The translations under genes and the position numbers were made by a program. A DNA stretch of 33,036 bases, taken from positions 1 through 33,036 of IMG/VR virus record IMGVR_UViG_3300012920_000136; one strand, written 5' to 3'. Positions 7,230 through 28,300 of the stretch are shown here, piece by piece. This stretch comes from a virus. Position 1 is the first letter of the stretch. Each line of letters starts with the position of its first letter. The notes under the pieces are model-generated. The model was given only the letters and a program-made list of their open reading frames with translations, was not told the origin of the DNA and made no database searches.

Positions 7230-7245
7230 TTTATACCTCAGTTAA

Positions 7246-7276
7246 GGGGGCTGCATATCTTATTTATGCAACCCCC
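7246..7276 (-). terminator. Hairpin between gp19 and gp20
   Basis: Two 11-base arms, 7246-7256 and 7266-7276, pair with one mismatch around a 9-base loop; on the minus strand GGGGGTTGCAT faces ATGCAGCCCCC. The hairpin lies 16 nt after the gp19 stop. No clear U-run follows it, so it may act as a leaky terminator, an RNA 3'-end stabiliser or a processing site instead of a strong terminator. The only late-promoter-like octamer before gp20 spans its loop. Confidence 0.6.
7261..7268 (-). promoter_or_regulatory. Late promoter candidate of gp20 (CATAAATA)
   Basis: One-base variant of TATAAATA, 31 nt before the gp20 start codon, a spacing like that of the exact copies before gp23 and gp18. It sits in the loop and inner stem of the gp19-gp20 hairpin. 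Confidence 0.5.
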
Positions 7277-7292
7277 ATCACTTATTCACTAA

Positions 7293-7856: not shown

Positions 7857-7875
7857 TTACTTTCTCCTCTTTCCC

Positions 7876-7883
7876 TATTTATT
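7876..7883 (-). promoter_or_regulatory. Weak late promoter candidate of gp19 (AATAAATA)
   Basis: One-base variant of TATAAATA overlapping the gp18 stop codon, 19 nt before the gp19 ATG. The leader would be very short, so this is the least convincing of the late-promoter matches. Confidence 0.3.
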
Positions 7884-9837: not shown

Positions 9838-9874
9838 CGTTTCTTCTCCTTATGAAGTGGTTATTCTTCATGAT

Positions 9875-9882
9875 TATTTATA
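9875..9882 (-). promoter_or_regulatory. T4-type late promoter of gp18
   Basis: Exact TATAAATA on the minus strand in the gap between gp17 and gp18, 37 nt upstream of the sheath start codon. It would allow higher expression of sheath and tube than of the terminase genes upstream. Confidence 0.72.
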
Positions 9883-9894
9883 AAAAAGGCAAAC

Positions 9895-11532: not shown

Positions 11533-11965
11533 TGTCGTTTTTCTTTAACATCTTCTGAAGCTCAGCAGTACTGCCGACAAATAAAGCATTCGTTACTTTA
11601 TTAGGCTTTTCACGTTCTTTACCTGTTATCCTATTCTGTTTCTCTCTCAAAGTCAACAGGTCTTTTTGTGCATCTGTCATTTGCTTCATTAGAGTTGCAA
11701 GCACTTCGAAAGCTCTTGGATGCTCCGATGATTGTGCAATGTCTATCATTGATTCTAATGCTTTGTTGCCTAATTCTGAAACTTTATACAAATTTTCTCG
11801 GGCATATTGAAAATCACTGTTGACCTCTGTCTCATCTTCGATTATAATCGACTCTGTCGCCCCGGGCAGAACATCATTAGGTCCTAGTATCTCATCAGCT
11901 TCTACTGGTAAGTTTAAGGCTTCTTCTATACTCTTATCAAACTTTGTTTTCTTTTTTCCGGGCAT
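11516..11965 (-). CDS. 16: Terminase small subunit gp16
   Basis: 149-residue small terminase subunit, which recognises viral DNA and stimulates the gp17 ATPase. It has a basic Lys-rich N-terminus (GKKKTKFDKS), an acidic segment, and a central helical region (about residues 55-110, with ALESMIDIAQSSEHPRAFEV and then a predicted coiled coil) similar in plan to the oligomerisation domain of T4 gp16 (164 residues). It lies between gp15 (3-nt gap) and gp17 (17-nt overlap), as in T4. The assignment relies on synteny plus the helical pattern. Confidence 0.92.
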   Translation of the reverse strand: MPGKKKTKFDKSIEEALNLPVEADEILGPNDVLPGATESIIIEDETEVNSDFQYARENLYKVSELGNKALESMIDIAQSSEHPRAFEVLATLMKQMTDAQKDLLTLREKQNRITGKEREKPNKVTNALFVGSTAELQKMLKKNDNESDG

Positions 11966-11968
11966 ACT

Positions 11969-12778
11969 CTATTCACTTTCTTCAATAGTAGTAACAAATC
12001 CATAATCATTATTACTATAAATCTGGGAACTGCTGATTGTAAGATTAGCTAAATTAGTAGGCTCACCATTAGCAGTTAGTCCAGGTACCACAGCTACATT
12101 AGCAACAGCTGTCTGTGTATTTTTAGGTAATTCATCAAATAAATTCGTAACGGTTCTTTTGATAACACCAGACTTACGAATTGGTCCGTAGATATAACCT
12201 TTTGCTATAAAATCCAATGTCCATATTATAGCTCTTCTTGTCTCAAAGTCACCCTCATAAACATCCTCATAATTTACACTTTGTAAGACAAGAGGGATAT
12301 CCATTTTTATATTCATCGATGGAATTAGATTGACTGTCGTTGTCCACTCTGGTGTAAAGAATGGTAAGATCTGCTCTAATACCTGTGTACCGTCGTCAGC
12401 GTTCTTAACAAGAATAGACATCTGAAAGTTTATGTCGTATGGTGTAGGTGTGTATTGAGAGTTAATTGTATCTGAGTCATCTGTCAAAACAAATTGATTT
12501 CGGATCGTTGATGCTAGCTTTCTTTCACCTGCATAGTTTATTCCTGTAATCTCAAAGCCTATACGAGGCAGTTGGATTGCAACGTCACGATCTAAATTTG
12601 GATCTTGGGATAGTCTTACCAAGAACTTTTGCTTTGGACCATATGCAATTGGCACCTTTAAGTTTTGTACAGTCTGACCTGCCTTGTTTATTCTACGAAC
12701 ATGAATGTCGTTAAACAAGTTGCCAAACATAACGACATACTTGCGTAAAGATTGGTGATAATACTGAAAGCCAAACAT
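11969..12778 (-). CDS. 15: Tail completion / sheath stabiliser protein gp15
   Basis: 269-residue T4 gp15-type protein (272 in T4). It forms the hexameric ring at the head-proximal end of the tail and joins it to the gp13/gp14 neck. The N-terminus MFGFQYYHQSLRKYVVMFGN and the blocks VPIAYGPKQKFLVRL and LPRIGFEITGI are typical of the marine T4-like members. Its ATG overlaps the gp14 stop by one base (TAATG), so the two are translationally coupled. Confidence 0.95.
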   Translation of the reverse strand: MFGFQYYHQSLRKYVVMFGNLFNDIHVRRINKAGQTVQNLKVPIAYGPKQKFLVRLSQDPNLDRDVAIQLPRIGFEITGINYAGERKLASTIRNQFVLTDDSDTINSQYTPTPYDINFQMSILVKNADDGTQVLEQILPFFTPEWTTTVNLIPSMNIKMDIPLVLQSVNYEDVYEGDFETRRAIIWTLDFIAKGYIYGPIRKSGVIKRTVTNLFDELPKNTQTAVANVAVVPGLTANGEPTNLANLTISSSQIYSNNDYGFVTTIEESE

Positions 12779-13632
12779 TAATATCTATCCACTTCTGAGA
12801 ATGGGTTAGCTTCGCTGAAGTCGATTACACTATCTGCTTCATATTGGTAGTATGCATTATTGGCTTGAGCATCTGCAGTCTCAACAGTGTATTCCTGCAT
12901 AATAGATCCACCATCTTCTGACTTCCATTTTGTTCCATCTTCAAGCAAGAACTCATAGAACAGAATGTCTTGGGACAATTCATCCTCAACACTATCAATC
13001 TCTGTAACCCCAGTATCCAGTCTTTCTGAACTGTATTCAAATAATTCACAACGTAGATCATATGTTTGTAATCTACCTGTCTGATAGAAAAGGTCTTCAT
13101 GTTCTACAAACTTAATTTCAAACAACTTATCCATCAAAGGCATGTAGATTAGATCACCTTCTGTAGGACGGTTATTAGTGATATTGTATCCATCAGAGGT
13201 TGCAGCTTCTAATTCCAATGATTCAGTTTCATGATCACCAGTCAAGAATCTACGAGAAGGTGCATTGTTATCACCATCTTCCAATGTGATGTTAAAGCCA
13301 ACTTCTGTCATTGCTTTTTCTGTACGAATTTGATCGTAGCGTTTTCTTGCTACTGTAAGAGTCATACTGTCTCTAATCTCAAGACCAAACTTTGATAGGA
13401 AGTCTCCATCACCATCAAACCCTTCAGTATTTTTTACATACATTTCAAGGTCTGCAGCTGATTCAAACTTACTAAGTACACTCTCACCATATAGGTCATC
13501 GCGCTCTACGATAGTACGCGGAATGTACTTGAAGTTGTGACCGTAGATCTTTATCGATTCTATTGCCAAGTCTTCAAGTAAATCTTGTTCGCGTGCAAAT
13601 GCGAAGTTGTTGAAATACTTGTTCGTAGCCAT
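12778..13632 (-). CDS. 14: Neck protein gp14
   Basis: 284-residue neck (head completion) protein of the T4 gp14 type. It begins MATNKYFNNFAFAREQDLLE, followed by the conserved block IYGHNFKYIPRTIVERDDLYGE. The protein seals the packaged head together with gp13 and provides the tail attachment site. The ATG at 13632 is preferred to an in-frame TTG three codons upstream; it starts 1 nt after the gp13 stop. The end overlaps gp15 by one base. Its length is close to T4 gp14 (256). Confidence 0.94.
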   Translation of the reverse strand: MATNKYFNNFAFAREQDLLEDLAIESIKIYGHNFKYIPRTIVERDDLYGESVLSKFESAADLEMYVKNTEGFDGDGDFLSKFGLEIRDSMTLTVARKRYDQIRTEKAMTEVGFNITLEDGDNNAPSRRFLTGDHETESLELEAATSDGYNITNNRPTEGDLIYMPLMDKLFEIKFVEHEDLFYQTGRLQTYDLRCELFEYSSERLDTGVTEIDSVEDELSQDILFYEFLLEDGTKWKSEDGGSIMQEYTVETADAQANNAYYQYEADSVIDFSEANPFSEVDRY

Positions 13633-13633
13633 G

Positions 13634-14377
13634 TTAACCAATCATGTCCATTAGGATACCACCGTAATTGGTTGTAACCTCAGACTCTAATCTTTGAATT
13701 TCTTCTACAGCTTCATTGTAGATCTGTTGTCCGTTAAACTGTAGTCCGCCAGGAAGCTGCATTCCTTCAAACTTCTTTAGGTTGTCACCCCATTGACGTT
13801 TGAACAATTGAGTTGTATAATCTCTCAACCATCTGTCACCATAAACATCAGTATATGTATCTGGATCAAGTATTCTATAACATTCAATGATGATGAACTC
13901 ACCCACAGCTACATCATCCGACCAATCCATATCAATCTTTAGTGTGTTGCGATGTCTTTGGAATCTGATAGGCTGTTCGCCAACAAACAACTCTTGTAAT
14001 GCTTCAACATGAGTCATAGCCATTTGATATTGAATGTAACTAGCGGATGAAAAATCAAATAAATCATTTAAGTGTAATTGATATCTAATGTTGAAGATAC
14101 CACCGGTGTTTAAATTATTGCCAATTGGAAAGATTCTTGTAACACCAATAACTGCTTCTGGGATAGATATGTATTCATTTGATATGTCTTCAGCAGTAAT
14201 CTGATGCTTCATATAAATACGTTCAGATCCATCATAATGATAATCTTGATAGAATCTTAGAGCATCATCTACTCTATCTTCAAGCTGCTCAGGGTCAACA
14301 TTAATGTCAATCACTGGAGCGCCTAGTCTTCTTAGGCAATAATCTACTAATTGTTGTCGTGAAGCTGGATTTGCCAT
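13634..14377 (-). CDS. 13: Neck protein gp13
   Basis: 247-residue neck protein of the gp13 type found in marine T4-like phages, shorter than T4 gp13 (309). The N-terminus MANPASRQQLVDYCLRRLGA and the next segment PVIDINVDPEQLEDRVDDAL are diagnostic of this family, and the block DVYGDRWLRDYTTQLFKRQWG near residues 180-200 is conserved. It acts with gp14 to close the filled head. It is the first gene of the minus-strand core block; immediately upstream the accessory island runs in the opposite direction. A GATAAATA late-promoter variant lies 27 nt before the start. Confidence 0.94.
   Translation of the reverse strand: MANPASRQQLVDYCLRRLGAPVIDINVDPEQLEDRVDDALRFYQDYHYDGSERIYMKHQITAEDISNEYISIPEAVIGVTRIFPIGNNLNTGGIFNIRYQLHLNDLFDFSSASYIQYQMAMTHVEALQELFVGEQPIRFQRHRNTLKIDMDWSDDVAVGEFIIIECYRILDPDTYTDVYGDRWLRDYTTQLFKRQWGDNLKKFEGMQLPGGLQFNGQQIYNEAVEEIQRLESEVTTNYGGILMDMIG
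14212..14219 (+). promoter_or_regulatory. Plus-strand late promoter candidate for the accessory island
   Basis: Exact TATAAATA followed by CG on the plus strand, inside gp13 and 210 nt before the first island gene. It is the only exact plus-strand copy I noticed and the only recognisable promoter-like signal upstream of the island. On the opposite strand it is part of the codons for IYMK, so chance is a real alternative. Confidence 0.35.
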
Positions 14378-14404: not shown

Positions 14405-14412
14405 TATTTATC
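14405..14412 (-). promoter_or_regulatory. Late promoter candidate of gp13 (GATAAATA)
   Basis: One-base variant of the T4 late octamer on the minus strand, 27 nt upstream of the gp13 start, in the divergent gap between gp13 and the accessory island. Its spacing matches the exact copies before the other virion genes. Confidence 0.5.
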
Positions 14413-14429: not shown

Positions 14430-15017
14430 ATGAACTATGAGATAAATGTATCAAGAACATTTAACGATGAGATTCGTTCGTTCTATCAATCTGTAGTAGA
14501 TAATCATGCTGGATCAATGAAATACCTTGATAATGTTGATCAGTATCACCCAGATATAATTGAAAAACTACCAGCAGTTTACTATTTTTTAGTAAATGTT
14601 GAAGGGACACCACAGTCTTGTCATATAGTGACTAAGAATGATTGGATGCCCGAAGGTTGGGTAAGGATACTTTCAAGATTGTATAATACTAAAGAATTTA
14701 CCTCACATCCTGATCATTACAAAATTAGATCAGAAGAGTTTAAAATTTTGTCTAAACTACCTGGGATTCAAAACATTCTTGTCACTCAAAATCTTGTTGA
14801 AGATGGTGAGATAAATTTTGAAAATTATCAAGACCATTATGTTAAATATAAACGACTATGGAAATTCTTTAGTAAGAAGATGCCTGACTGGAATTTTTAT
14901 TTTGATTTTAATCAGCTTCTTTATATTAACAAGACACCACAGATTAGTTTCTATGCAAGTCTAGGAGATAAGCCTGATATAACATGGCTTGAAGAGTTTG
15001 CTGTTCATGAAGATTAA
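14430..15017 (+). CDS. Unknown protein, first gene of the accessory island
   Basis: 195-residue soluble protein, not recognised with confidence. It begins MNYEINVSRTFNDEIRSFYQ, and the ATG at 14430 is chosen because AAGGA lies 7 nt before it; a TTG further upstream lacks such a site. The middle (FLVNVEGTPQSCHIVTKNDW, then GWVRILSRLYNTKEF) has a faint GNAT-acyltransferase look: a strand, then an Arg-containing segment before a helix. No clear acetyl-CoA motif is visible. Its 3' end overlaps the carbamoyltransferase start by 11 nt, so it is the leading cistron of the operon. An acyltransferase acting on the same substrate as its neighbours is one possibility only. Confidence 0.8.
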   Translation: MNYEINVSRTFNDEIRSFYQSVVDNHAGSMKYLDNVDQYHPDIIEKLPAVYYFLVNVEGTPQSCHIVTKNDWMPEGWVRILSRLYNTKEFTSHPDHYKIRSEEFKILSKLPGIQNILVTQNLVEDGEINFENYQDHYVKYKRLWKFFSKKMPDWNFYFDFNQLLYINKTPQISFYASLGDKPDITWLEEFAVHED

Positions 15018-16335
15018 AGGTCTATCATATGGTTTTCACGATGCTGCTGTTGCTGTGTTTGAGGGCAACAAATGTATCTTTGCGTCATCGGCAGAAAGAT
15101 ACACTAAAATAAAAAATGATCCAAACCTACCAGACTATCTTAAAAAACTTTCTTCTGATCAAGAAATCTTCTATGAAAATCCTCACAATAAAAATGACAG
15201 ATTAAAAAGATTTAATATACCATTTGATAATGAAGTTGATCAGGTATTGTACCAGGACCATCATTGGTCCCATGCAGCAGCTGGTTACTATACAAGACCT
15301 TTTGAAGAAGAACCTGTATGCGTAGTCATTGATGCAGTTGGTGAATGGGACACAGTGTCTATCTGGTATAAGCAGGTTAAAGTGTCAAGTTGGAAATATC
15401 CCACATCGTTAGGTTTGATCTACTCAGCAATTACAGAATACATTGGCTTAAAGCCAATGGAAGATGAATATATTACAATGGGCTTAGCCGCATATGGAGA
15501 ACCAAAATATGATATGTCCCCACTGCTTGATATCAATTGTCAATACATCCTTCCCCGCGATATCTTTCCTTCTAATGCTAGAAAGGAAGACCTTGCTGCA
15601 AGTGTGCAATATTTCCTTGAGAAGCAAATACGAAAGATTATGCAGCTTGCAAGAACATTTTCTCATCACTTAGTCTACGGTGGTGGTGTTGCCTTGAATT
15701 GTGTGGCCAATAGTATGGTCAACAAAATGTTTGATAATGTTCACATCTTTCCTAATCCTGGCGATGCAGGTTCAGCATTTGGTTGTGCTGCAGCTATGAT
15801 AAAAAAACCTGTTGACTGGTCTGCTTATATGGGTTATGATATAAGATCAAATACGAATCCAAAAGAGGTGGTCAATGAGTTGGTTAGAAAGTCCGTTGTC
15901 GGGGTCGCTAACGGAAAAGCTGAGTTTGGGCCTCGTGCTCTTGGCAATCGTTCCCTTCTTGCCGATCCTCGCCTTGATATTAAAGATACGGTCAATGATA
16001 TCAAAAGAAGACAAAGATACAGACCATTTGCCCCTGCTATTTTATCAGAGTTCGCAGAAGAATACTTCGAAGGACCAATGAACCAATGGATGCAATATGT
16101 GGCTAGGGCAAAGCACGATTACACTAGTGTATCTCATGTTGATGGGACTGCACGGGTGCAACTTGTAGAACCTGATTGTGAGTCTGTAATAAGACCAATA
16201 TTAGAAGAATGGTATGACAAAACAGGATGTCCAGTTTTGTTGAATACTTCGCTAAATATAAAGGGCCAGCCAATGGTCAATGACGAACAGGATGCTCGTA
16301 AGTTTGAACGTAAGTATGGAGTAAGAGTATTATGA
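15007..16335 (+). CDS. Carbamoyltransferase, NodU/TobZ/CmcH family
   Basis: 442-residue enzyme predicted to carbamoylate a hydroxyl of a sugar or other small molecule using carbamoyl phosphate and ATP through a carbamoyl-adenylate. The N-terminal Kae1-like domain begins MKIKGLSYGFHDAAVAVFEG and contains DHHWSHA (84-90), with metal/adenylate-type histidines, and MGLAAYGEP (158-166). The C-terminal domain has the family signature EFGPRALGNRSLLADPR (306-322) and ends with LLNTSLNIKGQPMV. It is about 100 residues shorter than typical bacterial members (about 550-600), mainly from a compact middle, but all signature motifs are present, so it should be active. The ATG at 15007 gives the expected family N-terminus. 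Neighbouring glycosyltransferases suggest a sugar substrate. Confidence 0.93.
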   Translation: MKIKGLSYGFHDAAVAVFEGNKCIFASSAERYTKIKNDPNLPDYLKKLSSDQEIFYENPHNKNDRLKRFNIPFDNEVDQVLYQDHHWSHAAAGYYTRPFEEEPVCVVIDAVGEWDTVSIWYKQVKVSSWKYPTSLGLIYSAITEYIGLKPMEDEYITMGLAAYGEPKYDMSPLLDINCQYILPRDIFPSNARKEDLAASVQYFLEKQIRKIMQLARTFSHHLVYGGGVALNCVANSMVNKMFDNVHIFPNPGDAGSAFGCAAAMIKKPVDWSAYMGYDIRSNTNPKEVVNELVRKSVVGVANGKAEFGPRALGNRSLLADPRLDIKDTVNDIKRRQRYRPFAPAILSEFAEEYFEGPMNQWMQYVARAKHDYTSVSHVDGTARVQLVEPDCESVIRPILEEWYDKTGCPVLLNTSLNIKGQPMVNDEQDARKFERKYGVRVL

Positions 16336-17051
16336 AGCATGTAGTATGCTTACGATGGGGTGATGCATATTCTGATGAATATGTTGATAACCTCAAAGAG
16401 CAGCTAGATGAACATCTAACTGTTGATTTTCAATTTCATTCCTTCACCGAAGAAGATCTACCAGAAAGTAACTGGGCCGAACTGTCTGAGTTTTATCAAG
16501 CTATTAGAGACCCTCGTCACTATACGTTTGATGATATGAGAGACTCAGGTGGTCTTTCTCACTTTCGTAAATTACAATTGTTTGGTAATTGTGACTTAGA
16601 AGGTGATATTGTTTATATGGATCTAGATGTAAAGATTCAAAAAAATATTGATTGGCTATTTGATCTTGACTCTGCAAAGCCATGGCTAATAAAAAACTAT
16701 TGGTTTGCTGGTGAAAGATTTAGAAAGAACTTTGCAGTCCACCGTTCTCCAATGATTAACAGTAGCGTAGTAAAATGGACTGGCGATCAAATGAAACCTA
16801 TTAATACATTTATTGATACAAATATTGATAAAGTAATGTTTACATATAATGCTATAGATAACTTCATCCAAGATCAATTCTGTGGCTTTCATAATGGTAA
16901 ACCCCATATGTTTAACTACTATGACAAGGGTCGTATAGTAAATTTCTCAGAAGTTAATGAAACAGAGCTTGAAGAATCTGATATTATTACATATCCTGGC
17001 CTGCCAGTTTGGGTTAAAGAAGAGCATGTGTTAGGAGTAGAGAATGTTTGA
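16332..17051 (+). CDS. GT-A-type glycosyltransferase-like protein (first copy)
   Basis: 239-residue protein with a nucleotide-sugar transferase look. It begins MKHVVCLRWGDAYSDEYV (first beta strand of a Rossmann-like fold) and has HFRKLQLFG followed by GDIVYMDLDVKI, where Asp97-Leu-Asp99 is the probable DxD metal/nucleotide-sugar motif. The later WLIKNYWFAGERF and SSVVKWTG segments resemble acceptor-side regions of phage members of this group. No membrane segment is seen. Its ATG overlaps the carbamoyltransferase stop in an ATGA arrangement. A distant paralogue is the last gene of the island. Donor and acceptor are unknown. Confidence 0.8.
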   Translation: MKHVVCLRWGDAYSDEYVDNLKEQLDEHLTVDFQFHSFTEEDLPESNWAELSEFYQAIRDPRHYTFDDMRDSGGLSHFRKLQLFGNCDLEGDIVYMDLDVKIQKNIDWLFDLDSAKPWLIKNYWFAGERFRKNFAVHRSPMINSSVVKWTGDQMKPINTFIDTNIDKVMFTYNAIDNFIQDQFCGFHNGKPHMFNYYDKGRIVNFSEVNETELEESDIITYPGLPVWVKEEHVLGVENV

Positions 17052-17691
17052 GTATACACCTGAAGTAGCTAAAGATTGGACATCAGCATTCAATAGAATT
17101 CAGAATGATATGCCATGGCGAACAAAGGACTGGTTGACTAGTATAGGTCCAGATCAACTTCGTTCTAAAAAATGGATTACAGATACATTATCTTCACTTC
17201 AAGAAGAAGGAAGAATAGAAGCACCTGGTGAGCATGATTGGGTATGTCAAATAGCAGCATGGAATAATCCATTTCTTTCTCAGATGCTAATTGATTATGG
17301 TTACGAAAATATTGTATGTATGGATATGGACCCTGATGCAAAATTAATTCATAATGCAGCTAATAAACGTCTTCGTTCAATGCATTCTATTGAGTATAAG
17401 ACTCGTGATGTAGTATTTGAAAAGCCCGATTGGTCTCAATTTAATCTTATCATAAACACATCTTGTGAACATATGTTTCCAATGAAAGAAGTATTTAAAA
17501 ATAGAACTATACTTCCAGGTACTACATTTGTTTTCCAATGTTCTAATCTTTTTAGCGAGAAGGGTCACATAATGTGTGTTGATTATGTTGAACAATTAAT
17601 TGATATTACAGGCCTGACAGACATATACTATGCAAACGAACTTCTATTGAGTAAGCAAAAACGTTTCATGGTAGTTGGAACATATGAGTGA
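17044..17691 (+). CDS. Methyltransferase-like (SAM-dependent, class I fold) protein
   Basis: 215-residue protein with a probable class I methyltransferase core. The block VCQIAAWNNPFLSQML (67-82) takes the place of the usual glycine-rich SAM loop, YENIVCMDMDPDA (87-99) gives the acidic residue after strand 2, and NLIINTSCEHM (134-144) matches the post-strand-4 motif seen in phage members. The glycine-rich loop itself is degenerate (AAWNNP), so SAM binding should be confirmed. A roughly 60-residue helical N-terminal extension precedes the core. It overlaps both neighbours by 8 nt. Substrate unknown; a sugar or small molecule fits the context. Confidence 0.68.
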   Translation: MFEYTPEVAKDWTSAFNRIQNDMPWRTKDWLTSIGPDQLRSKKWITDTLSSLQEEGRIEAPGEHDWVCQIAAWNNPFLSQMLIDYGYENIVCMDMDPDAKLIHNAANKRLRSMHSIEYKTRDVVFEKPDWSQFNLIINTSCEHMFPMKEVFKNRTILPGTTFVFQCSNLFSEKGHIMCVDYVEQLIDITGLTDIYYANELLLSKQKRFMVVGTYE

Positions 17692-18367
17692 ATATGTTGA
17701 ACAAGCAAATAAAATTGCAGAAGAGTTTCCTGGCTTTTATCTTAAACTAAAATTGCAATTACCAAAGGAGTCTATCCATGAAGTCCAAAATGTATTCGAT
17801 GAAAATTTCTTTGTTAAACATCGTGGACGAAATCATCTGGGTTGGATGTCTGCCACTATTCATGGTCTTGATGGCGATTGGTATAAGACGATGTCTGGCA
17901 AGCAATACGGTTACACTGGAGACTCTGATCCATCAATCAATTGGACTTGGACCGAGGTCGCAGAATACTGTCCAGAAACAGTCAGATGGCTAAAGGAAGA
18001 GTTTCCTTCTAAAACATTTAGACGCGTTCGTTTTATGTTACTTGAGCCAGGTGGTTATATCCTAGATCATAGTGACTACAATCCTAGAAATGGACCTCCT
18101 TCAAAAGGTCCTATAATGAATGCATTCAACTGTTGCTTGACGCAGCCAGATGAATGTGCTTTGGTAAATACGAAGTCAGAAATTAGTGTACCTTTTAAAC
18201 CTTTAGAGGTATACTGTTTTAATAATAATGTAAATCATCATGCTTATAACAATAGCGATGAGAATCGCTTTCATTTGATTGTTCATAACCATGAATATCG
18301 TGATGACTTTTATAAGTTATTTGTAGAGAGTTTTGAGCAAAATTATGACGGGCATATTTACCAATGA
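17684..18367 (+). CDS. Aspartyl/asparaginyl beta-hydroxylase-like 2-oxoglutarate/Fe(II) enzyme
   Basis: 227-residue double-stranded beta-helix dioxygenase predicted to hydroxylate a substrate with Fe(II), O2 and 2-oxoglutarate. RFMLLEPGGYILDHSDYN contains the iron-binding His129-x-Asp131. The distal iron ligand lies in NNVNHHAYNNS (His185 or His186), and Arg195 in SDENRFHLIVH is the likely 2-oxoglutarate ligand. This spacing matches the Asp/Asn hydroxylase family, which also includes free-amino-acid and proline hydroxylases. The ATG at 17684 is chosen over an upstream TTG; it overlaps the methyltransferase-like gene by 8 nt. The substrate is unknown. Confidence 0.82.
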   Translation: MSEYVEQANKIAEEFPGFYLKLKLQLPKESIHEVQNVFDENFFVKHRGRNHLGWMSATIHGLDGDWYKTMSGKQYGYTGDSDPSINWTWTEVAEYCPETVRWLKEEFPSKTFRRVRFMLLEPGGYILDHSDYNPRNGPPSKGPIMNAFNCCLTQPDECALVNTKSEISVPFKPLEVYCFNNNVNHHAYNNSDENRFHLIVHNHEYRDDFYKLFVESFEQNYDGHIYQ

Positions 18368-19790
18368 GGATTATGCAATTGGTGGTTCTCCTAAGATTGA
18401 ACCTAACACAGTTGCATTAGGGTTCATTAACCAATCACATATAGATAACATAGATGACTTACTCTGTAAGCATTCTGTGCAATCACATACTGAAAATACA
18501 ATTTTCAATTTACATAATCGCAGGATTGATTATATTGGTTTTTATGATCAGCCAGATGATGTAATAGAAGCTGCATATAAGGTTGGATATAAAGTAGTAA
18601 TTGTATGTGACATAGGCACCTTTATAAACAGTCAACCTTTGATAAGTATGTTGAAATCTATCAACGAAGGTTATTCGTTGATTGGACATATATTAGATAA
18701 AAGGCACAAGTACTATCAATTACATAATCAATGCTTTGTACTTGATCTTGAGTCTTGGGAAGAGGTTGGTCGTCCTAGATGGGATGATAGAGAGGATGGA
18801 CCTTTACAGAGAATTATACGTAGTGGTGATAACTTTCACGATGACTATACACCTACAGAGTTAGTAAAAGGTCAAGGAACTGTTGATGTTGGCAATCCTG
18901 ACAATGGATCAAAAATAATTTCTCAACTAGTAAAAAATAATTTTAAGATTCGTCCATTCAACGAAGAAGAACGAAATGGAAAATATTTCCTTTATCACAA
19001 TGATGAATGGAAAGCAAATTTACGGATTAATGATTATCATGAGAAGAACTTTTATCCAACATATGCTTACTTCTATGCTGTAGAAACAGAGAAGACACCA
19101 AAGTTTAAAATTGATGATACGATTACATCTTATGTTGGTATTTGTGCATCACTTCATCCATTTAAGATGATTCGTCATTTTGAGCTTGACAATCTAAGAC
19201 AAATGGTATTATATGATATTAGTACTGCAGCTGTAATGTTTTATCAAGGGTTAGAAGCATGGGACGGAGAAGATTATCTTACAGTTGTAAAAAACTCTCA
19301 TGCTGTTATTGGCACTAGAACAGATGAAGATATAGAAAAGTATTTTGAGCAGACAAAGAGTTTTTGTCAGCCTTGGGAATTTGTAATGGACATCTTTCAT
19401 GATACCCAAAAGATGTATGAGATGGGTAATCTAATGACAGATAAGATACAACGTCAGATTATGCATAAGCATAATAAAACAGATAATGTATTATTCCATG
19501 TAAGCAATATCTTTAACTATGAAATTACTAATCATGATGTGTCTATCTACTACAGATATTTTGCTTGGTTAAACCTTTTATTTTATGCAAAAAAATATAC
19601 TAATCGTACACACTTTATTGGTAGTAATATTTTTGGTAAGTCCCATGTAAATACAGATGACTTAAATCTTCAACAATGTCTTGATTATGTAGATCAAATT
19701 ACATTTACACCATGGCAGGAAGCTCAGAAAGAAAAGTTTAAGGAAAGTATTGTTCTCAGATATGAGAAGAATATGAATGTATCAATATGA
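18345..19790 (+). CDS. Large two-part protein of unknown function, possibly transferase
   Basis: 481-residue protein, not recognised. The first half has a Rossmann-like beginning: VGYKVVIVCDIGTFIN (80-95), then GYSLIGHILDKR and QCFVLDLESWEEVGRP, a pattern that recalls nucleotide-sugar transferases. The second half (from about 260) has SYVGICASLHPFKMIRHFE and MVLYDISTAAVMFYQGLEAW (287-306); the acidic end of that strand looks like a SAM-binding fold. A glycosyltransferase-methyltransferase fusion is therefore conceivable but not demonstrated. The ATG at 18345 is preferred to an upstream TTG; it overlaps the hydroxylase by 23 nt. The 3' end overlaps the 33-residue gene in an ATGA arrangement. 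Confidence 0.72.
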   Translation: MTGIFTNEDYAIGGSPKIEPNTVALGFINQSHIDNIDDLLCKHSVQSHTENTIFNLHNRRIDYIGFYDQPDDVIEAAYKVGYKVVIVCDIGTFINSQPLISMLKSINEGYSLIGHILDKRHKYYQLHNQCFVLDLESWEEVGRPRWDDREDGPLQRIIRSGDNFHDDYTPTELVKGQGTVDVGNPDNGSKIISQLVKNNFKIRPFNEEERNGKYFLYHNDEWKANLRINDYHEKNFYPTYAYFYAVETEKTPKFKIDDTITSYVGICASLHPFKMIRHFELDNLRQMVLYDISTAAVMFYQGLEAWDGEDYLTVVKNSHAVIGTRTDEDIEKYFEQTKSFCQPWEFVMDIFHDTQKMYEMGNLMTDKIQRQIMHKHNKTDNVLFHVSNIFNYEITNHDVSIYYRYFAWLNLLFYAKKYTNRTHFIGSNIFGKSHVNTDDLNLQQCLDYVDQITFTPWQEAQKEKFKESIVLRYEKNMNVSI

Positions 19791-19888
19791 TAAAAAGATT
19801 CTTTAATAAACTACGATTAAAATGGAACTTGTACAAACTGAAGCGTAGCAAGAAAAAGTATAACGATAAATTTACATATCATGGTTAA
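19787..19888 (+). CDS. 33-residue basic micro-protein
   Basis: Short frame encoding 33 residues with nine Lys and three Arg but one Asp, beginning MIKRFFNKLRLKWNLYKLKR. Its ATG overlaps the stop of the 481-residue gene (ATGA), and its own stop lies 8 nt inside the next gene, so it completes the chain of overlaps along the operon. It bridges what would otherwise be a 90-nt gap between two genes. It could be a real small protein with an amphipathic, nucleic-acid- or membrane-binding helix, or a coupling frame that carries ribosomes to the SGNH-like gene. No homologue is recalled. Confidence 0.55.
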   Translation: MIKRFFNKLRLKWNLYKLKRSKKKYNDKFTYHG

Positions 19889-20750
19889 ACATATACTAGC
19901 AAATGGTTGTAGCTATACGTCAGGAGGATTAAATGATACAGCTGATCGTCTAGATGTAGCCTGGCCACAAATCTTAGCTAATAAGTTAGATTGTAAGGTT
20001 ACAAATTTAGCCACATCCGGTGCTGGCAATACTCGTATATATGATTTAACAATAAAAGAAATATCAGATAATCCTGACAAATACGATCTAGTTGTAATCA
20101 TGTGGTCAGTGGCTACAAGAATAGACATTCCAGCACTTACTATAGATACTACTAATGGCAAAGGAAATGGTTATATTAGTTGCTGTCCATTTAGAGTAGG
20201 ATTTGAAGGCGAGAACTTTAGCTTTGAAACTAATAAATTAGAATATATGGATTCCATAAAAGAGCCTGATAATTGGCAATATCAAATGCATTCATTTGCT
20301 GAGTTTGTTGCCTACATGAATCTTATAATGGATAGAGATTTTCGATACATAGGTAAAGAAAAACGTACAACTATTGTTAATAAATTCCTTACTACTGAAT
20401 GGACCAAAATACTTGGATTACAAAGTTTTTTAGAAACACAAGGAATTAAATATATCTTTGCTCAAGGAACACCTATGATAACATCTAATGTTTTAATTAA
20501 CTTGGGCTATTTAGAAGCACAAGAACTTATAGGTGAGTTTATAATAAGTAATCCATTAATTGATTTGATTGATACAGATAAATGGGTTAACTGGTATCCT
20601 TGTATATCTTTAGGTGGATACGACTATACCCAAAAACTTGTAGATTTAAATCTTTATCATTCTGGAACTGATAATCATCCAAACGAAGAAGGTAACATAA
20701 TGATAGCAGAAGATTTCGAAAACAAATATAAGAAGCTATATGGATCTTGA
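19881..20750 (+). CDS. SGNH/GDSL-like hydrolase
   Basis: 289-residue protein with an SGNH-hydrolase plan. Block I is ILANGCSYTSGG with candidate nucleophile Ser11, a member of the G-x-S-x-T-x-G type. A middle strand holds KYDLVVIMWSVATRID. The last block is GTDNHPNEEGN with Asp264 and His266 as the likely triad partners. These enzymes remove or transfer acyl groups on sugars and lipids. The G and N residues of blocks II and III are not obvious (SGAGNTR at about 46-52 may supply them). It lies in the accessory operon, overlapping the micro-gene by 8 nt and the radical SAM gene by 11 nt. An esterase acting on an O-acylated glycan would fit the neighbours. Confidence 0.75.
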   Translation: MVKHILANGCSYTSGGLNDTADRLDVAWPQILANKLDCKVTNLATSGAGNTRIYDLTIKEISDNPDKYDLVVIMWSVATRIDIPALTIDTTNGKGNGYISCCPFRVGFEGENFSFETNKLEYMDSIKEPDNWQYQMHSFAEFVAYMNLIMDRDFRYIGKEKRTTIVNKFLTTEWTKILGLQSFLETQGIKYIFAQGTPMITSNVLINLGYLEAQELIGEFIISNPLIDLIDTDKWVNWYPCISLGGYDYTQKLVDLNLYHSGTDNHPNEEGNIMIAEDFENKYKKLYGS

Positions 20751-22044
20751 AGACGAAACAAAAGTAAAGTGGTTTTGTCCTGAACCATTTGCAGCCATCA
20801 CTACAGACACAACAGGCTTGTATAAACCTTGTTGCGCAACTGTTGGTCTTGATGGTTATTCATGCTCTGTGTCTACACATACCCCTGTAGAAGCTATGAA
20901 TAGTCCAGCAGCTAAGAAATTACGTAAGGCATTTATCGATGATGATAAAGAAATATTAGAGCAAACCTGTAAGACGTGTATGACACAAGAGGAAAATGGT
21001 ATTCGTTCTCATAGACAGTATTATAATGATAGATATACAAAATCAAATAAAGATGAACCACCAGAATTCTCTACTCATGTGTATGACCTTGTCGAGCTTG
21101 TTGAAAATGTTCGCAAAGATCCCGAAGCAGATATAGATCCAAAATATTTTCATACAATGGAACATACAGCAGGCGGAGGAAACTATTGTAATCTAAAGTG
21201 TGCTATGTGCACTGCAAGTTCAAGCAGTTCGTTTGCCAAAGAGTCATTTGAGCTAGATGAGTTGTATGCAAAAGTACATAAGCATAGATTTGGAAGACAT
21301 AAGTATGTTCCTCAAGTAGCAAATAGAACTGATAAAGAAATAAAAGAGCGTGTTTTACCAAATCTGAAAGAAATAAAATTGACGGGTGGAGAGCCACTAG
21401 CTATTCCTTACAATTACGATTTACTTAAACATTCTGTATATAGTGGATATTCAGAGAATCAGACTCTAAGAATTATTACTAATGGTACAATGACACCTAA
21501 GCATCATGGTATAGATATCTTTGATATTATTCCAAGATTTAATAAAGTAATCATAAATGTTTCAATTGAAGCATGGGGTGTAAGAAATAACTACATTAGA
21601 TATCCTAGTGAATGGAATACAGTATTAAAAAATGCTATAAGTTTATCTAGATTTGAAAACTGTGATGTCACATTTGTTTCTACTATAAATGCATTGAACA
21701 TTGGATACTTAAATGAAATTATACAATACAATCCTGACTCATTGTTAAAACCAGTCGCTGTATCTTATGTTGTAGATGGCCATCCAACAGGAATGAATAT
21801 CTCAGCTATACCTGATGATATCAAAGAACAGTACATTGATAAAATTTACAGCCTACCTATAGAAGTATCTAAAATGTTGCAACCGCACGTAGAAATGCTA
21901 GAGTCAAAAACACATAATCAAGTAGAGCAAAATATACTGTTGACTAGAATGGCAGGACGTGATAGATTAAGAGGAACCAATCTACTAGAGCTTTGGCCAG
22001 AATGGACCCCATATTATGAAGATTTTTTGCGTACGGATCGGTGA
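20740..22044 (+). CDS. Radical SAM enzyme with N-terminal cysteine-rich (twitch/SPASM-like) region
   Basis: 434-residue radical SAM protein. The iron-sulfur motif CNLKCAMC (Cys150, Cys154, Cys157; CX3CX2C) binds the cluster that cleaves SAM, and KLTGGEPL (213-220) is the typical SAM-contact motif. The first 80 residues carry an additional cysteine set: WFCPEP (Cys13), KPCCATV (Cys31-32) and CKTCMTQ (Cys77, Cys80). Its spacing resembles a twitch/SPASM auxiliary-cluster domain, but placed before, not after, the barrel. Similar proteins occur in marine T4-like phages. The reaction is unknown; relatives modify peptides or sugars. It is the ninth gene of the island and overlaps the SGNH-like gene by 11 nt and the second glycosyltransferase by 29 nt. 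Confidence 0.88.
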   Translation: MDLEDETKVKWFCPEPFAAITTDTTGLYKPCCATVGLDGYSCSVSTHTPVEAMNSPAAKKLRKAFIDDDKEILEQTCKTCMTQEENGIRSHRQYYNDRYTKSNKDEPPEFSTHVYDLVELVENVRKDPEADIDPKYFHTMEHTAGGGNYCNLKCAMCTASSSSSFAKESFELDELYAKVHKHRFGRHKYVPQVANRTDKEIKERVLPNLKEIKLTGGEPLAIPYNYDLLKHSVYSGYSENQTLRIITNGTMTPKHHGIDIFDIIPRFNKVIINVSIEAWGVRNNYIRYPSEWNTVLKNAISLSRFENCDVTFVSTINALNIGYLNEIIQYNPDSLLKPVAVSYVVDGHPTGMNISAIPDDIKEQYIDKIYSLPIEVSKMLQPHVEMLESKTHNQVEQNILLTRMAGRDRLRGTNLLELWPEWTPYYEDFLRTDR

Positions 22045-22723
22045 CAAATACGGACCTCAGTATGAGAAATACTTAGAGGAAAAGTTACCTGAATACGACT
22101 TTCATTGGATTCGCAAACCATTTGATAAACGTATAGCGTTGCAATGGAATAAAATGGCAATCATGAATATGGATATTGATGAGCCAGTTTGTGTAATGGA
22201 CATTGATGTTCTTCTTATCAATGACTACCGTCAAGTATTTGAGTATCCTATTAAACGTGGTCAGTTTCTAGCAATGCCTGGCTGGTGGCGTGATAATGAC
22301 TATCATGAGTTTAAGATTAACGGTGGCTTCCAGAAGTATTATCCTACAGATATGAAGTATGTATATGAAAAGTTTATGCAAGATCCATTATATTGGCAAC
22401 GCTACTATATTGAAGAAGGATATACTACAGGACCAGTAAACGGCGAGCAGTATTTTGTAGAGAGTAGTGCTAGAGAGAATCTACAAGTTGACACATTACC
22501 AGAAGCATGGTTCTGTCGTATGCTTAGCGATAAGACGTATGATGAAGAACCATACTACTACACAGATTGGCTAGCAAAGAAGAACCAGAAGTATTGCGAC
22601 TTAACTGGTAATGACTTTATGTTCTTGGATGGGGAGTTCCATGAGGATATAAAGTTTGCGCACTTTACACACAGTCTAAATAAACCACACGAATGGAAGT
22701 ATTACTCAGAATTTTCTTCTTGA
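22016..22723 (+). CDS. GT-A-type glycosyltransferase-like protein (second copy)
   Basis: 235-residue protein with the same plan as the glycosyltransferase-like gene at 16332. It begins MKIFCVRIGDKYGPQYEKYL, then ALQWNKMAIMNM, followed by EPVCVMDIDVLLIND, where Asp62-Ile-Asp64 is the probable DxD motif. INGGFQKYYPTDM and the Trp/Tyr-rich segments before the C-terminus are further shared-looking features. No strong ribosome site precedes the ATG, but the start lies 29 nt inside the radical SAM gene, so translational coupling is likely. The last 22 nt overlap the end of the convergent minus-strand gene. Confidence 0.8.
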   Translation: MKIFCVRIGDKYGPQYEKYLEEKLPEYDFHWIRKPFDKRIALQWNKMAIMNMDIDEPVCVMDIDVLLINDYRQVFEYPIKRGQFLAMPGWWRDNDYHEFKINGGFQKYYPTDMKYVYEKFMQDPLYWQRYYIEEGYTTGPVNGEQYFVESSARENLQVDTLPEAWFCRMLSDKTYDEEPYYYTDWLAKKNQKYCDLTGNDFMFLDGEFHEDIKFAHFTHSLNKPHEWKYYSEFSS

Positions 22724-23277
22724 GTTTCTTCTGCAAGAAGCATAGGTGCAGCTGCTGCAAGAATTTCTAATGCTGATTGTGCCTTACGGATCTTAGACTT
22801 AGCTACTTTATCCTGACTTCCACGAACTTTTTCTTGCTCAAATATTTGAATTTTCATAGCAAATAAATCTTCTTTAGACATCTGCTTATTAAGTACTTCC
22901 ATAATGTCTTGGTCTTTGTAAACTGTCTTTACACGACCACCAGAGCTATCCTTGTTCTTAGTAATCCAATTAGTTTTATTCTCTAATTTTTGTCTAAGAT
23001 CATTGATTTCTTCTTGAAGCAAATTGTAGTTTTGTATCTTCTCATCCCACTCTAATTGTTGCTTACGATTACTCTCATGGTCTTTCTGCATATCTTCTAA
23101 AGATTTCCACTTGAGCAACTGTAAGTAATCTTCATCACTCGGGTCTTCGGTACGTACAATAAAGCCTATATAATTTCCAGGAGAATCTTCTTGTTCTACT
23201 GTAACTTCAATTGTTGTCATGTCATCATCAATAAAACGTATAGAGTATGGAGACATACTCTCATTCAAAACAGTCAT
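22702..23277 (-). CDS. Coiled-coil protein of unknown function, end of the fibre cluster
   Basis: 191-residue protein, not recognised. A short beta-rich N-terminus (residues 10-45, with IRFIDDDMTTIEVTVEQ) is followed by a charged helical region (about 55-105) that should form a coiled coil, a basic loop, more helix, and an Ala/Leu-rich segment (ALEILAAAAPMLLAEE, 169-184) before an acidic C-terminus. It follows two fibre-like structural genes, so a tail-fibre assembly chaperone or an attachment protein is a possible role. Its 3' end overlaps the last 22 nt of the plus-strand island. Confidence 0.75.
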   Translation of the reverse strand: MTVLNESMSPYSIRFIDDDMTTIEVTVEQEDSPGNYIGFIVRTEDPSDEDYLQLLKWKSLEDMQKDHESNRKQQLEWDEKIQNYNLLQEEINDLRQKLENKTNWITKNKDSSGGRVKTVYKDQDIMEVLNKQMSKEDLFAMKIQIFEQEKVRGSQDKVAKSKIRKAQSALEILAAAAPMLLAEETQEENSE

Positions 23278-23290
23278 TATAAAATCCTCA

Positions 23291-24217
23291 TTAAGATGTT
23301 TTAATTACATAAAGTGTAAAAGTTGATTGTACCGCATTAGATCCACTAGGAAAGTTCCTAGATCTGTAATCATTTGCATTAACAAATAAATTAAATTGTG
23401 TTGAAGTATTGAGTTGTTGATCTACAGAAGAACCTCTAGAATTAACAGTTGCACCAGATGGAACAGATGTATGCCAATCATACCTAAGACCACCAGATGA
23501 TAAAGTAGCTTGATATCTTATTGCATTTTGAAGTAATGTTTGAAAGTTACCATCAGTCAATGGTTGAATTTGATTACTAGAGCTATTCCAACCTGCGGGT
23601 ACTGTAAAGCTAGCTGATGATCCAGTATATTGTAATAACCGATAAGTATTATTTGTTACGATATGTGAACCTGATGAGTTTTTAAAGGTATCATCTGTAA
23701 CATGAGCAGCTACTGTAGCTGATGAATTATATCTAGAGTCAGAGAACGCAATAGTACCAGAAGATGCAGAACTACTTAAAAAGTATGTGCCAGGCCCATT
23801 GGCGGCAACAAGAACATCAATAGCTGGATCAGCAAATGTATCTCTAAAATCTTGAGCACTAAATTCTTGTAGTTGAGTACCAGTCCAATACAAAGGTGCT
23901 TCCATACTTCCTAGTGTAATATCAGAAAGAGATGCAACTGTTTGATACATTGTATAATTAGTAGCAAACGAACCAGTAGCAGGTGCTGATGGAAAGGCTG
24001 ATACGTTAGTAGCATCATCTCCTGCAACACGAAAATTATCTGTCTGAGTACCAATAGCAGTACCAGAAGACATATTCAAAGTTACGGAAGGATTGAGCGA
24101 GAATTGATAAGCAGCCTGATTAACAATCTCAGTAATTTGACCAGCTGTCATTTGGCGGAGGCCGCCTTCATTACTATTTAGAGTTGCGTCCCAGTATACA
24201 GGAGTACGTACAGCCAT
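23291..24217 (-). CDS. Fibre- or baseplate-associated structural protein
   Basis: 308-residue, Ser/Thr/Asn/Gly-rich protein without obvious enzyme motifs. The N-terminus MAVRTPVYWDATLNSNEGG, followed by LRQMTAGQI, resembles the start of small structural proteins found beside the giant DUF4815 protein in marine T4-like phages. The rest alternates short hydrophobic strands with Ser/Thr turns, suggesting a beta-rich fibre or adhesin domain, ending FTLYVIKTS. AAGGA lies before the ATG. It sits 9 nt after the preceding 304-residue gene and is probably co-transcribed with it. Confidence 0.8.
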   Translation of the reverse strand: MAVRTPVYWDATLNSNEGGLRQMTAGQITEIVNQAAYQFSLNPSVTLNMSSGTAIGTQTDNFRVAGDDATNVSAFPSAPATGSFATNYTMYQTVASLSDITLGSMEAPLYWTGTQLQEFSAQDFRDTFADPAIDVLVAANGPGTYFLSSSASSGTIAFSDSRYNSSATVAAHVTDDTFKNSSGSHIVTNNTYRLLQYTGSSASFTVPAGWNSSSNQIQPLTDGNFQTLLQNAIRYQATLSSGGLRYDWHTSVPSGATVNSRGSSVDQQLNTSTQFNLFVNANDYRSRNFPSGSNAVQSTFTLYVIKTS

Positions 24218-25146: not shown

Positions 25147-25395
25147 TTAATCCTTTTTAACAAGTTGAACGAGTAAATCTTTCAACTCATGCAATTCATT
25201 TCGTATAGTATTTATATCATTGTTCACTTGATTCATCTGATCTTTCACAGCTTTTCTTTCAGCAAGCTCACGCTGCTTAGCAGCTTTCTCTATTTTATAT
25301 GCCTCGAATGACCGTACATCATCATTTATAACACCACCGTTTGTGGTGTCCTTTACTAAATTTTGGTGGTCTTTAATTGGCTTTAACTGTGACAT
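25147..25395 (-). CDS. Small coiled-coil protein after the giant structural gene
   Basis: 82-residue protein: a short N-terminus (MSQLKPIKDHQNLVKDTTNG) followed by a long charged helix (residues 31-78) with heptad-like hydrophobic spacing ending LHELKDLLVQLVKKD, so probably a coiled coil. It overlaps the 3' end of the 2440-residue gene by 13 nt and precedes the fibre-like genes by 5 nt. Comparable small proteins occur at this place in cyanophage genomes. It may be a minor baseplate or fibre-joining component; function unknown. Confidence 0.78.
   Translation of the reverse strand: MSQLKPIKDHQNLVKDTTNGGVINDDVRSFEAYKIEKAAKQRELAERKAVKDQMNQVNNDINTIRNELHELKDLLVQLVKKD
25209..25216 (-). promoter_or_regulatory. 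T4-type late promoter inside the 82-residue gene
   Basis: Exact TATAAATA followed by CTATA on the minus strand, 67 nt before the tail-fibre-like gene at 25141. It is the best sequence match to the extended T4 late consensus in the window and would drive the three downstream fibre-cluster genes. Confidence 0.6.
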
Positions 25396-28300
25396 ATCAT
25401 TCGGAAGTTTTTAACTTTAGGAACATTTACTGGGTTAGATGATTTCATCACCAATTTAATTACAGCAACTTTAAAGTCATCAAGGTCTTCAATATTGATA
25501 GTTACTTCTCTGAAACCACCTGTCTCTGTATCAATAGCAGATGAAACAAAACCTGAATCAATATATGTTTCAACCGAATCTAATCTTTCAAGATCTGAAG
25601 CTATTTTATACATAGCCTGTATAGAGCAGCCTGCTGGAATATTTACATCCATAATAATCTTTATAGATTGAGCAGCTGTAGTAAGACTTAGAGGTCTTGT
25701 AATATAGTTAGCAAGGTTAGTTGCACCCTCTACAGCAATATCATCAACAAATCTATCTAGCAAGTCGATAGAGAAGTTTGCACTATTAGATTGAATTCTA
25801 TAAGCCGAGGAAGACATTCCTTCCAGCGCACCTGCTGCCAGGGTAATAGTAGTATCATCAGTAATAGTTGTTACTTTACCAATCACATTACCTGTAGCTG
25901 TCTCCAAGAAGTCACCAACAGTTACTTCATCTTGGAATTGTGTTGATGAACCAGAAACACCTGTTGTACCATATGTTACAGAAGCTGTACCTGTTCCAAT
26001 AAACGATGAAGTAGCATTTACTGCATGTAGTCTAACTGCAACTGATGAACCTGCTTGATTTGACTTAGTGAATGGTGATCCAAGAGTAATAGTTGTTTTA
26101 TCTTGATCGGGGTTACCACCAAACGTATTGTTAGCTGATGTAAGAGTCACACCTGTAACAAGATAAGAACCATTGATACCTGACATTACGCTCTTAATGT
26201 CAAGATGCTGACCAACCTTTACATTTTGAAGTGTATCATCAACTGCATCTACGTTTGTGACAATTTGACCTGCTGTAGTATTAGCATTACTGAATGTAAT
26301 ATTACCATTTGATTGAACAACATATGAAACTGGTGAGCCATCTGTAATCTCTGCATTCTTAGTCATCATAACTTGTGTTGCAGAGTTTACAGTCAACACT
26401 GTACCAATTACAGCTTGATCAGCTGCTCTTCTAATAATATCACCTGGGAATAATTCACCAGCAAAGTTTGTACTACTACCTGTAATAAAGTTATTGGATG
26501 AATTGTAGGTGATTGAACCAGAGCCAGTTGACTGGACTGTTGTATTTGAAATACTTGAGCTGTTAGTCATAGGTGTGGAATCAAGTTCAACAACATTAAA
26601 CTGCGAATCAGTAAAACTACTAACTCGGTTTTGAATTCCATATCCAATAATCTGCTGAAGGTCAATTACTGGTGAAATGTTATCGTTATTCGAGAACAAC
26701 TCTGCCTTAACCTTCAAAGACGAAGTTTTCAAAATTGGCGGACCTGCAGCTTCAGTAGCTTGGTTTTCAAACGACTTCAAGAATTTACGAGTTGTAAGAT
26801 ATCTTGTCTGACCTGGAGTAATACCTGTGAATCCAGAGAAAGTACTATCATTATTTTCTACATCAAAGAAATATTTTAATGTTGTATCGCCTAATACAAT
26901 GTCTTGAGAATTCAGGAAGAATCCATCTACAGGTAGCTGTCTAGAACACGTCACACCACTACCACCATAAAAGCCTTTTACAAAGCTATTGACAGAGCCA
27001 ACCAAAGCACCATCATCAGTTGGAAGTTCGATAATAAAGCTATCAGGTTCTAAGCCGGTTGCTATAACAGTATGCGTTCCATTAATCGCAGAAGCCTGGA
27101 ACCCATTACTAGTTGATCCAGATCCGTAAATACCTTCTTGAACACCACTAATCAATGCTTTTTGTCCAGTTTGGAAACCATGATTTGGAGCCAACACTCT
27201 TACTTTATTTGTGTTAGGTGCAAACTGTAATGGGTTTGCTTTCAAGGTCATTGGAACTGGTGGAACACCTTTAAAGTTTACAGTCTTAGTTTCATTAATA
27301 GTAAACTTAGCTTGACGCAATGTAAACTTCATATCTTTAAGCGGATGAGCTACAAACTCTTGACCGTTTTGAGACAGATATAAAGAACCTTTTAGTGGAT
27401 TCTGGTTTACAGGACTACTGTTAGTCAAATCAGTACCACCAAGCTCACTCACATAAACTTGACATCCAGGCTCATCGGTCTTTACTACCAAGGCATATGT
27501 CTCACCATGCTGAACATAGATTGGAGCCTTGAAAGTAAAGTTAGTTGCAATAGATGCATCAGAAGAAGTAAACACATCAAATGTTTGTTTAGTTACCTGT
27601 GAGAAAGGAAGAACTTTAGTTGATGGAACACCAGTACTATTAGTTGTTCTAATCTCAACAGTCACAGGTCTCCGACCTGTAGCTGAGAAATACAAATCAA
27701 CATCAGTAAGGAATGCACCGCCAGGTGATCTTACAGTAAATGTCTGTGCTAATGGATCATGACCTGTTGTCCATGTAGCAATAAGTCTTTGAGTTGAACC
27801 AACACGTCTAGTTACTTGTCTATCGCCTGAGAATAATCTATCAGTTGCAAACTCAACAGATCTTGAACTTACCAATGTTCTTTCTTTAGACAACGTATAA
27901 CCTTGTGAAGCAAAATTAGCTCTACCAATAGAATCAAAGTCTTCATCTGTATTACTAATATTATCACTAAGTTTAAAAGCTCTTTCACCAACTCGGAAAG
28001 CGTTTCTTTCATTGTTAGGAAGATTAAATACACCTACAGCTGTACCTTCAAGATCAGACTTAATATCATCTCCTGGTACTTTCATTGTTGGAGCAGATGT
28101 ACCATCTGCACTACCATTAATAGCAGTAATATCAACTACGTTAAATGTTGAAGCAGCAATCTCTGTTTTACCAAGTAGTCTATCACCAATTGCAAAACCA
28201 TTTACAATATTTACAAGATGGATATCTTGGTTTGTAATTGTTCCAGCAGGTGCAGTTACATTTACAAATCCTGCATGAGCAACTACAGCAGATGCTGTCA

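Follow-up and report, generated by a model that had tools for sequence, protein, structure and literature searches.

In marine T4-like phages, a virus-borne enzyme cassette recurs within the host recognition cluster, beside two genes designated n2 and n1. A ten-gene enzyme island in a T4-like phage fragment (IMG/VR record IMGVR_UViG_3300012920_000136) is an expanded copy of this cassette in inverted orientation. The window referred to below is the whole stretch of DNA analyzed, which is the entire record of 33,036 bases. The probable product of the cassette is a sugar with unusual decorations, destined for either the virion or the surface of the host. The reading that we tentatively prefer, with a probability of roughly 0.42, is that the cassette makes a modified sugar and attaches it, most likely to a virion host-recognition appendage (n2, which n1 would partner or help to assemble).

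Layout and gene content of the island

The island occupies positions 14430 to 22723, between gp13 and genes of the fiber region, where the sequence-only reading had placed it. Its ten plus-strand genes begin with ATG and overlap by 11, 4, 8, 8, 23, 4, 8, 11, and 29 nt, exactly as that reading had described. The flanking virion genes all lie on the minus strand, also as described: those for prohead protease, portal, tail tube, terminase, gp15, gp14, and gp13 to the left and the VrlC-like gene n5 to the right, the right side also carrying n1, n2, n3, and n4. The island genes and the neighbors that bear on them are as follows.

Positions 13634 to 14377, minus strand: gp13, neck protein; boundary of the cluster, with a late-type motif 35 nt upstream (5' end at 14412).
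Positions 14430 to 15017, plus strand: g1, 195 aa, no family match; 46% identity to its relative, dN/dS of 0.28.
Positions 15007 to 16335, plus strand: g2, NodU/TobZ-type O-carbamoyltransferase, 442 aa (Pfam Carbam_trans_N/C, 157 bits); optional cassette member.
Positions 16332 to 17051, plus strand: g3, glycosyltransferase-like, 239 aa, with a DLD motif and a weak PHROG glycosyltransferase match; core.
Positions 17044 to 17691, plus strand: g4, class I methyltransferase/spermidine synthase-like, 215 aa, family signature INTSCEH; core.
Positions 17684 to 18367, plus strand: g5, AspH/LpxO-type 2-oxoglutarate oxygenase, 227 aa (Pfam PF05118, 40 bits; cutoff, 22.6); core.
Positions 18345 to 19790, plus strand: g6, 481 aa, two domains (AlphaFold2 pLDDT, 72); core.
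Positions 19787 to 19888, plus strand: g7, lysine-rich microprotein, 33 aa, 85% identical in the relative, dN/dS of 0.17.
Positions 19881 to 20750, plus strand: g8, SGNH/GDSL-like hydrolase (DUF6071), 289 aa (Pfam, 31.6 bits; cutoff, 27); optional.
Positions 20740 to 22044, plus strand: g9, N-twitch radical SAM protein, 434 aa (NF033640, 265 bits; cutoff, 170); optional.
Positions 22016 to 22723, plus strand: g10, GT8-like glycosyltransferase, 235 aa (AlphaFold2 pLDDT, 93.7); most conserved core gene.
Positions 22702 to 23277, minus strand: n1, 191 aa; cassette companion.
Positions 23291 to 24217, minus strand: n2, 308 aa, Ser/Thr rich (26% S+T), in the fiber region; cassette companion and candidate acceptor.
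Positions 25383 to 32705, minus strand: n5, VrlC-like baseplate gene, 2440 aa, DUF4815 (Pfam); other boundary of the host recognition cluster.

The same ten genes were found in identical order and in the identical slot in IMG/VR 3300021964_000232, at 46 to 95% identity. Between the window and this relative, dN/dS was 0.01 to 0.07 for most island genes, with the higher values of g7 and g1 given above; for g3 and g8 dS was saturated, and hence no ratio was obtained. These low values show that the island genes are real and under purifying selection. The island had been described as richer in A and T than its flanks, which holds against the left flank (GC of 0.348 versus 0.401; p = 0.0008) but not against the right flank (0.366; p = 0.36, not significant).

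Curated cutoffs and motifs upheld the assignment of the carbamoyltransferase, the AspH-type oxygenase, the SGNH/DUF6071 hydrolase, and the N-twitch radical SAM protein. The g2 product matches NovN, GdmN, and TobZ in sequence and has the two domains of its family, together with the motifs HxxxH (as HHWSH) and ALGxRS (as GPRALGNRS). The HxD...H...R motif is present in g5 (HSD...H...R), for which a PDB sequence search returned spurious cellulase matches and nothing else; g8 contains GCS and DNHP, and g9 contains CX3CX2C. Family profiles support the methyltransferase-like call for g4, members of whose family match methyltransferase and spermidine synthase models.

The glycosyltransferase call for g10 was borne out by fold search, in which the predicted structure, a GT-A fold, matched the GT8 enzymes LgtC, glycogenin, and GlyE. 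Its DxD motif (DID) is invariant in 27 sequences, yet g10 falls below the cutoff for Pfam Glyco_transf_8, as for every Pfam glycosyltransferase family. A neighboring gene in Pelagibacter phage Mosig scores 23.9 bits for Glyco_transf_8, against a cutoff of 24.3. Alignable with g10 at low identity, g3 may be regarded as glycosyltransferase-like on weaker evidence than g10. In PDB fold searches the N-terminal part of g6 gave a GT-A-like match with low TM-scores and the C-terminal part a weak methyltransferase match; a motif scan of g6 found no DxD. The fold match of g6 to collagen-modifying enzymes was a general GT-A resemblance, with TM-scores of about 0.2. No clear transmembrane segment was found in any island protein (top 19-residue hydropathy, 1.63, in g8).

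Recurrence of the cassette in marine viruses

A scan with g4 recovered at least 547 relatives in viral contigs and three in bacterial metagenome-assembled genomes (MAGs), two of the latter three contigs carrying n1, n2, or VrlC-type phage genes; a scan with g10 recovered 296 relatives. The search patterns for g5 and g6, made from two-sequence alignments, were poor, and those scans missed relatives that were later found. Read with profiles built in this analysis and counted as distinct g10 sequences, 91 distinct viral loci contain the core cassette of g3, g4, g5, g6, and g10, with g10 at approximately 30 to 60% identity. Because retrieval went through g4 and g10, the counts apply to cassette-bearing loci rather than to marine phages at large.

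Gene order within the loci is largely fixed: g4 precedes g10 in 64 of 64 cases and g6 precedes g10 in 42 of 42, while g3 lies before g10 in 59 of 67 and the AspH-type gene before g6 in 34 of 39. The carbamoyltransferase (18 of 91 loci), SGNH hydrolase (13), and radical SAM (46) genes are optional, and g1 was seen solely in the window and its one full relative. The fullest loci read n5-n4-x-n2-n1-carb-SGNH-g3-g4-AspH-(rSAM)-g6-g10-x-gp13. In some, L177 among them, the VrlC genes lie on the gp13 side, with n2, n1, and the cassette still together. Several co-directional loci, among them L090 (positions 10120 to 10896), have a gene of about 260 aa between g10 and gp13 that resembles a degenerate ATP-pyrophosphatase (SSSSDS) and has no Pfam match. 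On a single-cell marine virus contig (L087, positions 4762 to 7953), SGNH, carbamoyltransferase, and radical SAM genes are consecutive.

The block thus behaves as one unit, as first proposed: all ten genes stand in order in one relative, and the core stays together, mostly in order, across divergent marine viruses. The proposal of a complete ten-gene pathway fared less evenly. The core is kept together and sugar decoration fits the enzymes, but the carbamoyltransferase, SGNH, and radical SAM genes are each missing from many loci, and g1 is confined to two. Nor is the island a one-off insertion among the assembly genes; the cassette more often shares the direction of the virion genes, and the slot that it occupies was previously described as hypervariable (PMC7029224).

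The next-closest relatives with a visible flank (L006 and L007; gp13 71 to 72% identical) contain no island and have fiber-size genes directly upstream of gp13. A near-identity DNA search of cultured phages gave no match to the window, and the nearest neck proteins to its gp13 come from phages with mixed hosts. No bacterial host operon for the cassette was found: none of the 247 genomes examined in the sampled host order contained g10 beyond a single short match on an already-known phage contig, and two of the three g4 matches in MAGs lay on contigs with phage genes. An origin from a host operon was therefore rejected.

Orientation and expression

The cassette is co-directional with the virion genes in 65 of the 91 loci and inverted in 20. 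In the window g10 adjoins n1, and the carbamoyltransferase gene lies at the gp13 end, with g1 between the two; co-directional loci show the opposite arrangement, so the block has been inverted as a unit. An invertible DNA switch is disfavored, no long or near-perfect inverted repeat joining the island ends.

A late-type motif, NATAAATA, lies 27 to 75 nt upstream of seven minus-strand genes and also upstream of the capsid gene end at 1216. All eight minus-strand sites (1216, 2433, 4042, 7268, 7883, 9882, 14412, and 25216) precede virion genes and resemble T4 late promoters. No such motif was found close upstream of any island gene in the window, and the single match on the plus strand, at 14212, is not retained in 3300021964_000232. 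Because the island lacks a conserved late-type motif in the window, its timing may differ from that of the virion genes. Elsewhere, gp13 is preceded by the motif in 36 of 43 cassette loci, and in several inverted relatives the motif lies just ahead of the first inverted gene. A consensus scan for an early promoter upstream of g1 gave no information (51 sites versus 49 expected).

Linkage of the cassette to n1 and n2

Where the VrlC side was visible, n1 and n2 were both present in 47 of 50 cassette loci and in 0 of 16 loci without the cassette (Fisher p, 1e-12). Since the former were collected by g4 and g10 and the latter by gp13, this link may partly reflect clade or shared ancestry. Among eight large T4-like phage records, n2 was found only in Mosig, which is also the record with a close g10 match and whose VrlC is 33% identical to n5 over 804 aa. 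In Mosig, n2 is Mosig_00097 and n1 is Mosig_00095; more distant n1 relatives occur in C48C1 and in a 234-kb contig (L269) that has a g10 relative, where n5-n4-x-x-n1 lies about 2 kb from g10. On the same contig (positions 172000 to 190000), a gene set including fatty acid synthase-like and QueC-like genes adjoins the n1 and g10 relatives.

In co-directional loci a cassette gene follows directly after n1 in 38 of 45, mostly abutting or overlapping, and a late-type motif between n1 and the next gene was absent in 45 of 45. The distances of g10 and n1 are correlated (rho, 0.80; 0.64 after allowing for gp13), and those of n2 and g10 are correlated weakly (partial, 0.15).

A collagen-like protein encoded in the window (positions 4058 to 5596, minus strand) has two long Gly-X-Y runs, and its gene overlaps the start of the portal gene. 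It was rejected as the target because, of 14 genomes or fragments with the cassette, 1 gave a clear match, compared with 4 of 6 lacking it; collagen-like relatives occur in phages both with and without the cassette.

Proposed function and alternative explanations

The core comprises two glycosyltransferase-type proteins, a two-domain protein resembling glycosyltransferases and methyltransferases, a methyltransferase-like protein, and an AspH-type oxygenase. Together these would assemble a modified sugar and then attach it to an acceptor, and the optional carbamoyl, SGNH, and radical SAM steps would alter the outer chemistry of the sugar from phage to phage. The acceptor would be a virion host-recognition appendage (n2, with n1 as its partner or assembly factor). 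What makes such an appendage the likeliest acceptor is the linkage of the cassette to n1 and n2, its direct junction with n1 in most relatives, and the absence of membrane proteins from it. Consistent with this reading are the core order held at about 30% protein identity, the constant slot, the inversion of the block as a whole in 20 of 91 loci, and the GT8-like fold predicted for g10. A more specific version, which we regard as rather unlikely, is a protein glycosylation system dedicated to a single appendage, in which n2 (with n1) would be the acceptor or carrier of a methylated, hydroxylated, and sometimes carbamoylated sugar, with exchangeable outer steps and the block in either direction.

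Several points count against a virion appendage: the n1/n2 link may partly reflect clade, n2 distances track g10 weakly, and the island in the window has no conserved late-type motif. GT8 enzymes, moreover, are often enzymes of lipopolysaccharide (LPS) synthesis.

The main rival, possible though doubtful, is that in infected cells the cassette remodels a glycan of the host surface (LPS core or O-chain) and so blocks superinfection by competing phages. This has been proposed for the glycosyltransferases of the same cluster (PMC7029224), and it fits the resemblance of g10 to LgtC, a GT8 enzyme of lipo-oligosaccharide synthesis. Placement on the opposite strand without a late-type motif could also mean earlier expression. 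However, most relatives are co-directional with n1 and directly follow it, which suggests late expression, and the cassette has no flippase, polymerase, or other membrane protein. The membrane-bound flippase or transferase required for gtrABC-type O-antigen conversion was likewise not found among the island proteins. Host glycan remodeling also leaves the n1/n2 link unexplained. The sequence-only reading had named virion or host surface modification; the tie to virion genes is strengthened by this linkage, which does not settle the choice between the two targets.

It is improbable that the island is a gathering of unrelated auxiliary genes in a hypervariable hotspot. Other enzymes do occupy the slot elsewhere, as in Pelagibacter phage HTVC008M (six genes, with ferrochelatase and dioxygenases) and in L020 (Rieske and two 2-oxoglutarate oxygenases), and the carbamoyltransferase, SGNH, and radical SAM genes come and go, but the order g3-g4-g5-g6-g10 is held across divergent viruses and in both orientations. 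The L020 genes (positions 7811 to 10025, minus strand) are three AT-rich genes opposite in strand to their surroundings, encoding a Rieske protein and two 2-oxoglutarate/Fe oxygenases.

Phage DNA hypermodification, in which a modified base would be the substrate of the carbamoyltransferase, is very improbable. The 5-hydroxymethylcytosine carbamoyltransferase belongs to the same superfamily as g2 (PMC8670742), but the carbamoyltransferase is optional here, and a search for PF00303, the partner thymidylate synthase family, gave no match in Mosig (141 kb) or in a 115-kb contig bearing the carbamoyltransferase. The gene list of the 33-kb window contains no thymidylate synthase/dCMP hydroxymethylase either, and carbamoyltransferase genes beside glycosyltransferases form the unmodified class in PMC8670742. 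Least likely is a RiPP-like peptide pathway with the 33-aa g7 as precursor and the radical SAM protein and oxygenase as modifiers; a small conserved ORF does adjoin radical SAM, oxygenase, and methyltransferase-like genes, but g7 is lysine rich without a recognizable leader and core, and about half of the loci have no radical SAM gene.

Comparison with known systems

The slot is already known as the host recognition cluster of pelagimyophages, a hypervariable region between VrlC and the neck gene that holds glycosyltransferases (GT8 being the most represented) and radical SAM cassettes beside fibers (Zaragoza-Solas et al. 2020, PMC7029224). The slot of the island is identical, with the VrlC-like n5 on one side and gp13 on the other, and shares the variable content, glycosyltransferases, and fiber-type genes. 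That cluster was termed nonsyntenic, and no carbamoyltransferase or oxygenases were named in that paper; in contrast, the cassette described here recurs in ordered form from virus to virus, inverts as a unit, and is tied to n1 and n2. The phages with 5-hydroxymethylcytosine carbamoyltransferases (PMC8670742) have an enzyme of the same superfamily as g2; for the cassette, no thymidylate synthase partner was found and the carbamoyltransferase is optional.

Enzyme blocks on the opposite strand are also visible in two deposited genomes. HTVC008M (KC465899.1, positions 56402 to 59681) carries enzyme genes opposite to the virion strand immediately before the neck gene; these are six genes (L263, positions 10403 to 13682), including those for ferrochelatase, 2-oxoglutarate oxygenases, and phytanoyl-CoA dioxygenases, in the slot of the island. 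Unlike the island, HTVC008M has dioxygenases and ferrochelatase and no g10, n1, or n2. Closer to the island is Mosig EXVC030M (MT647606.1, positions 60990 to 71305), with a plus-strand enzyme operon on the opposite strand in the same slot, homologues of g2, g3, g4, g8, and g10, MoaA-type radical SAM proteins, and n1 and n2 alongside. It differs in its order (carb-g4-GT8-g10...g3), in extra nitroreductase and aminotransferase genes, and in that no g6 was found.

A search of the main text of openly available papers found no account of the ordered cassette, of its inversion as a block, of the families of g4 and g6, or of the linkage to n1 and n2, all of which are apparently undescribed. The cassette also brings to light two protein families without described function, g4 (INTSCEH) and g6. 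Because relatives of g4 or g10 occur in hundreds of marine viral contigs and no counterpart was found in the sampled host order, the cassette likely represents a virus-made chemistry that is common in the ocean and uncharacterized. Linkage to n1 and n2 supplies named candidate acceptors, and with both genes beside a related block in Mosig, the question of host surface versus particle becomes testable in a cultured phage.
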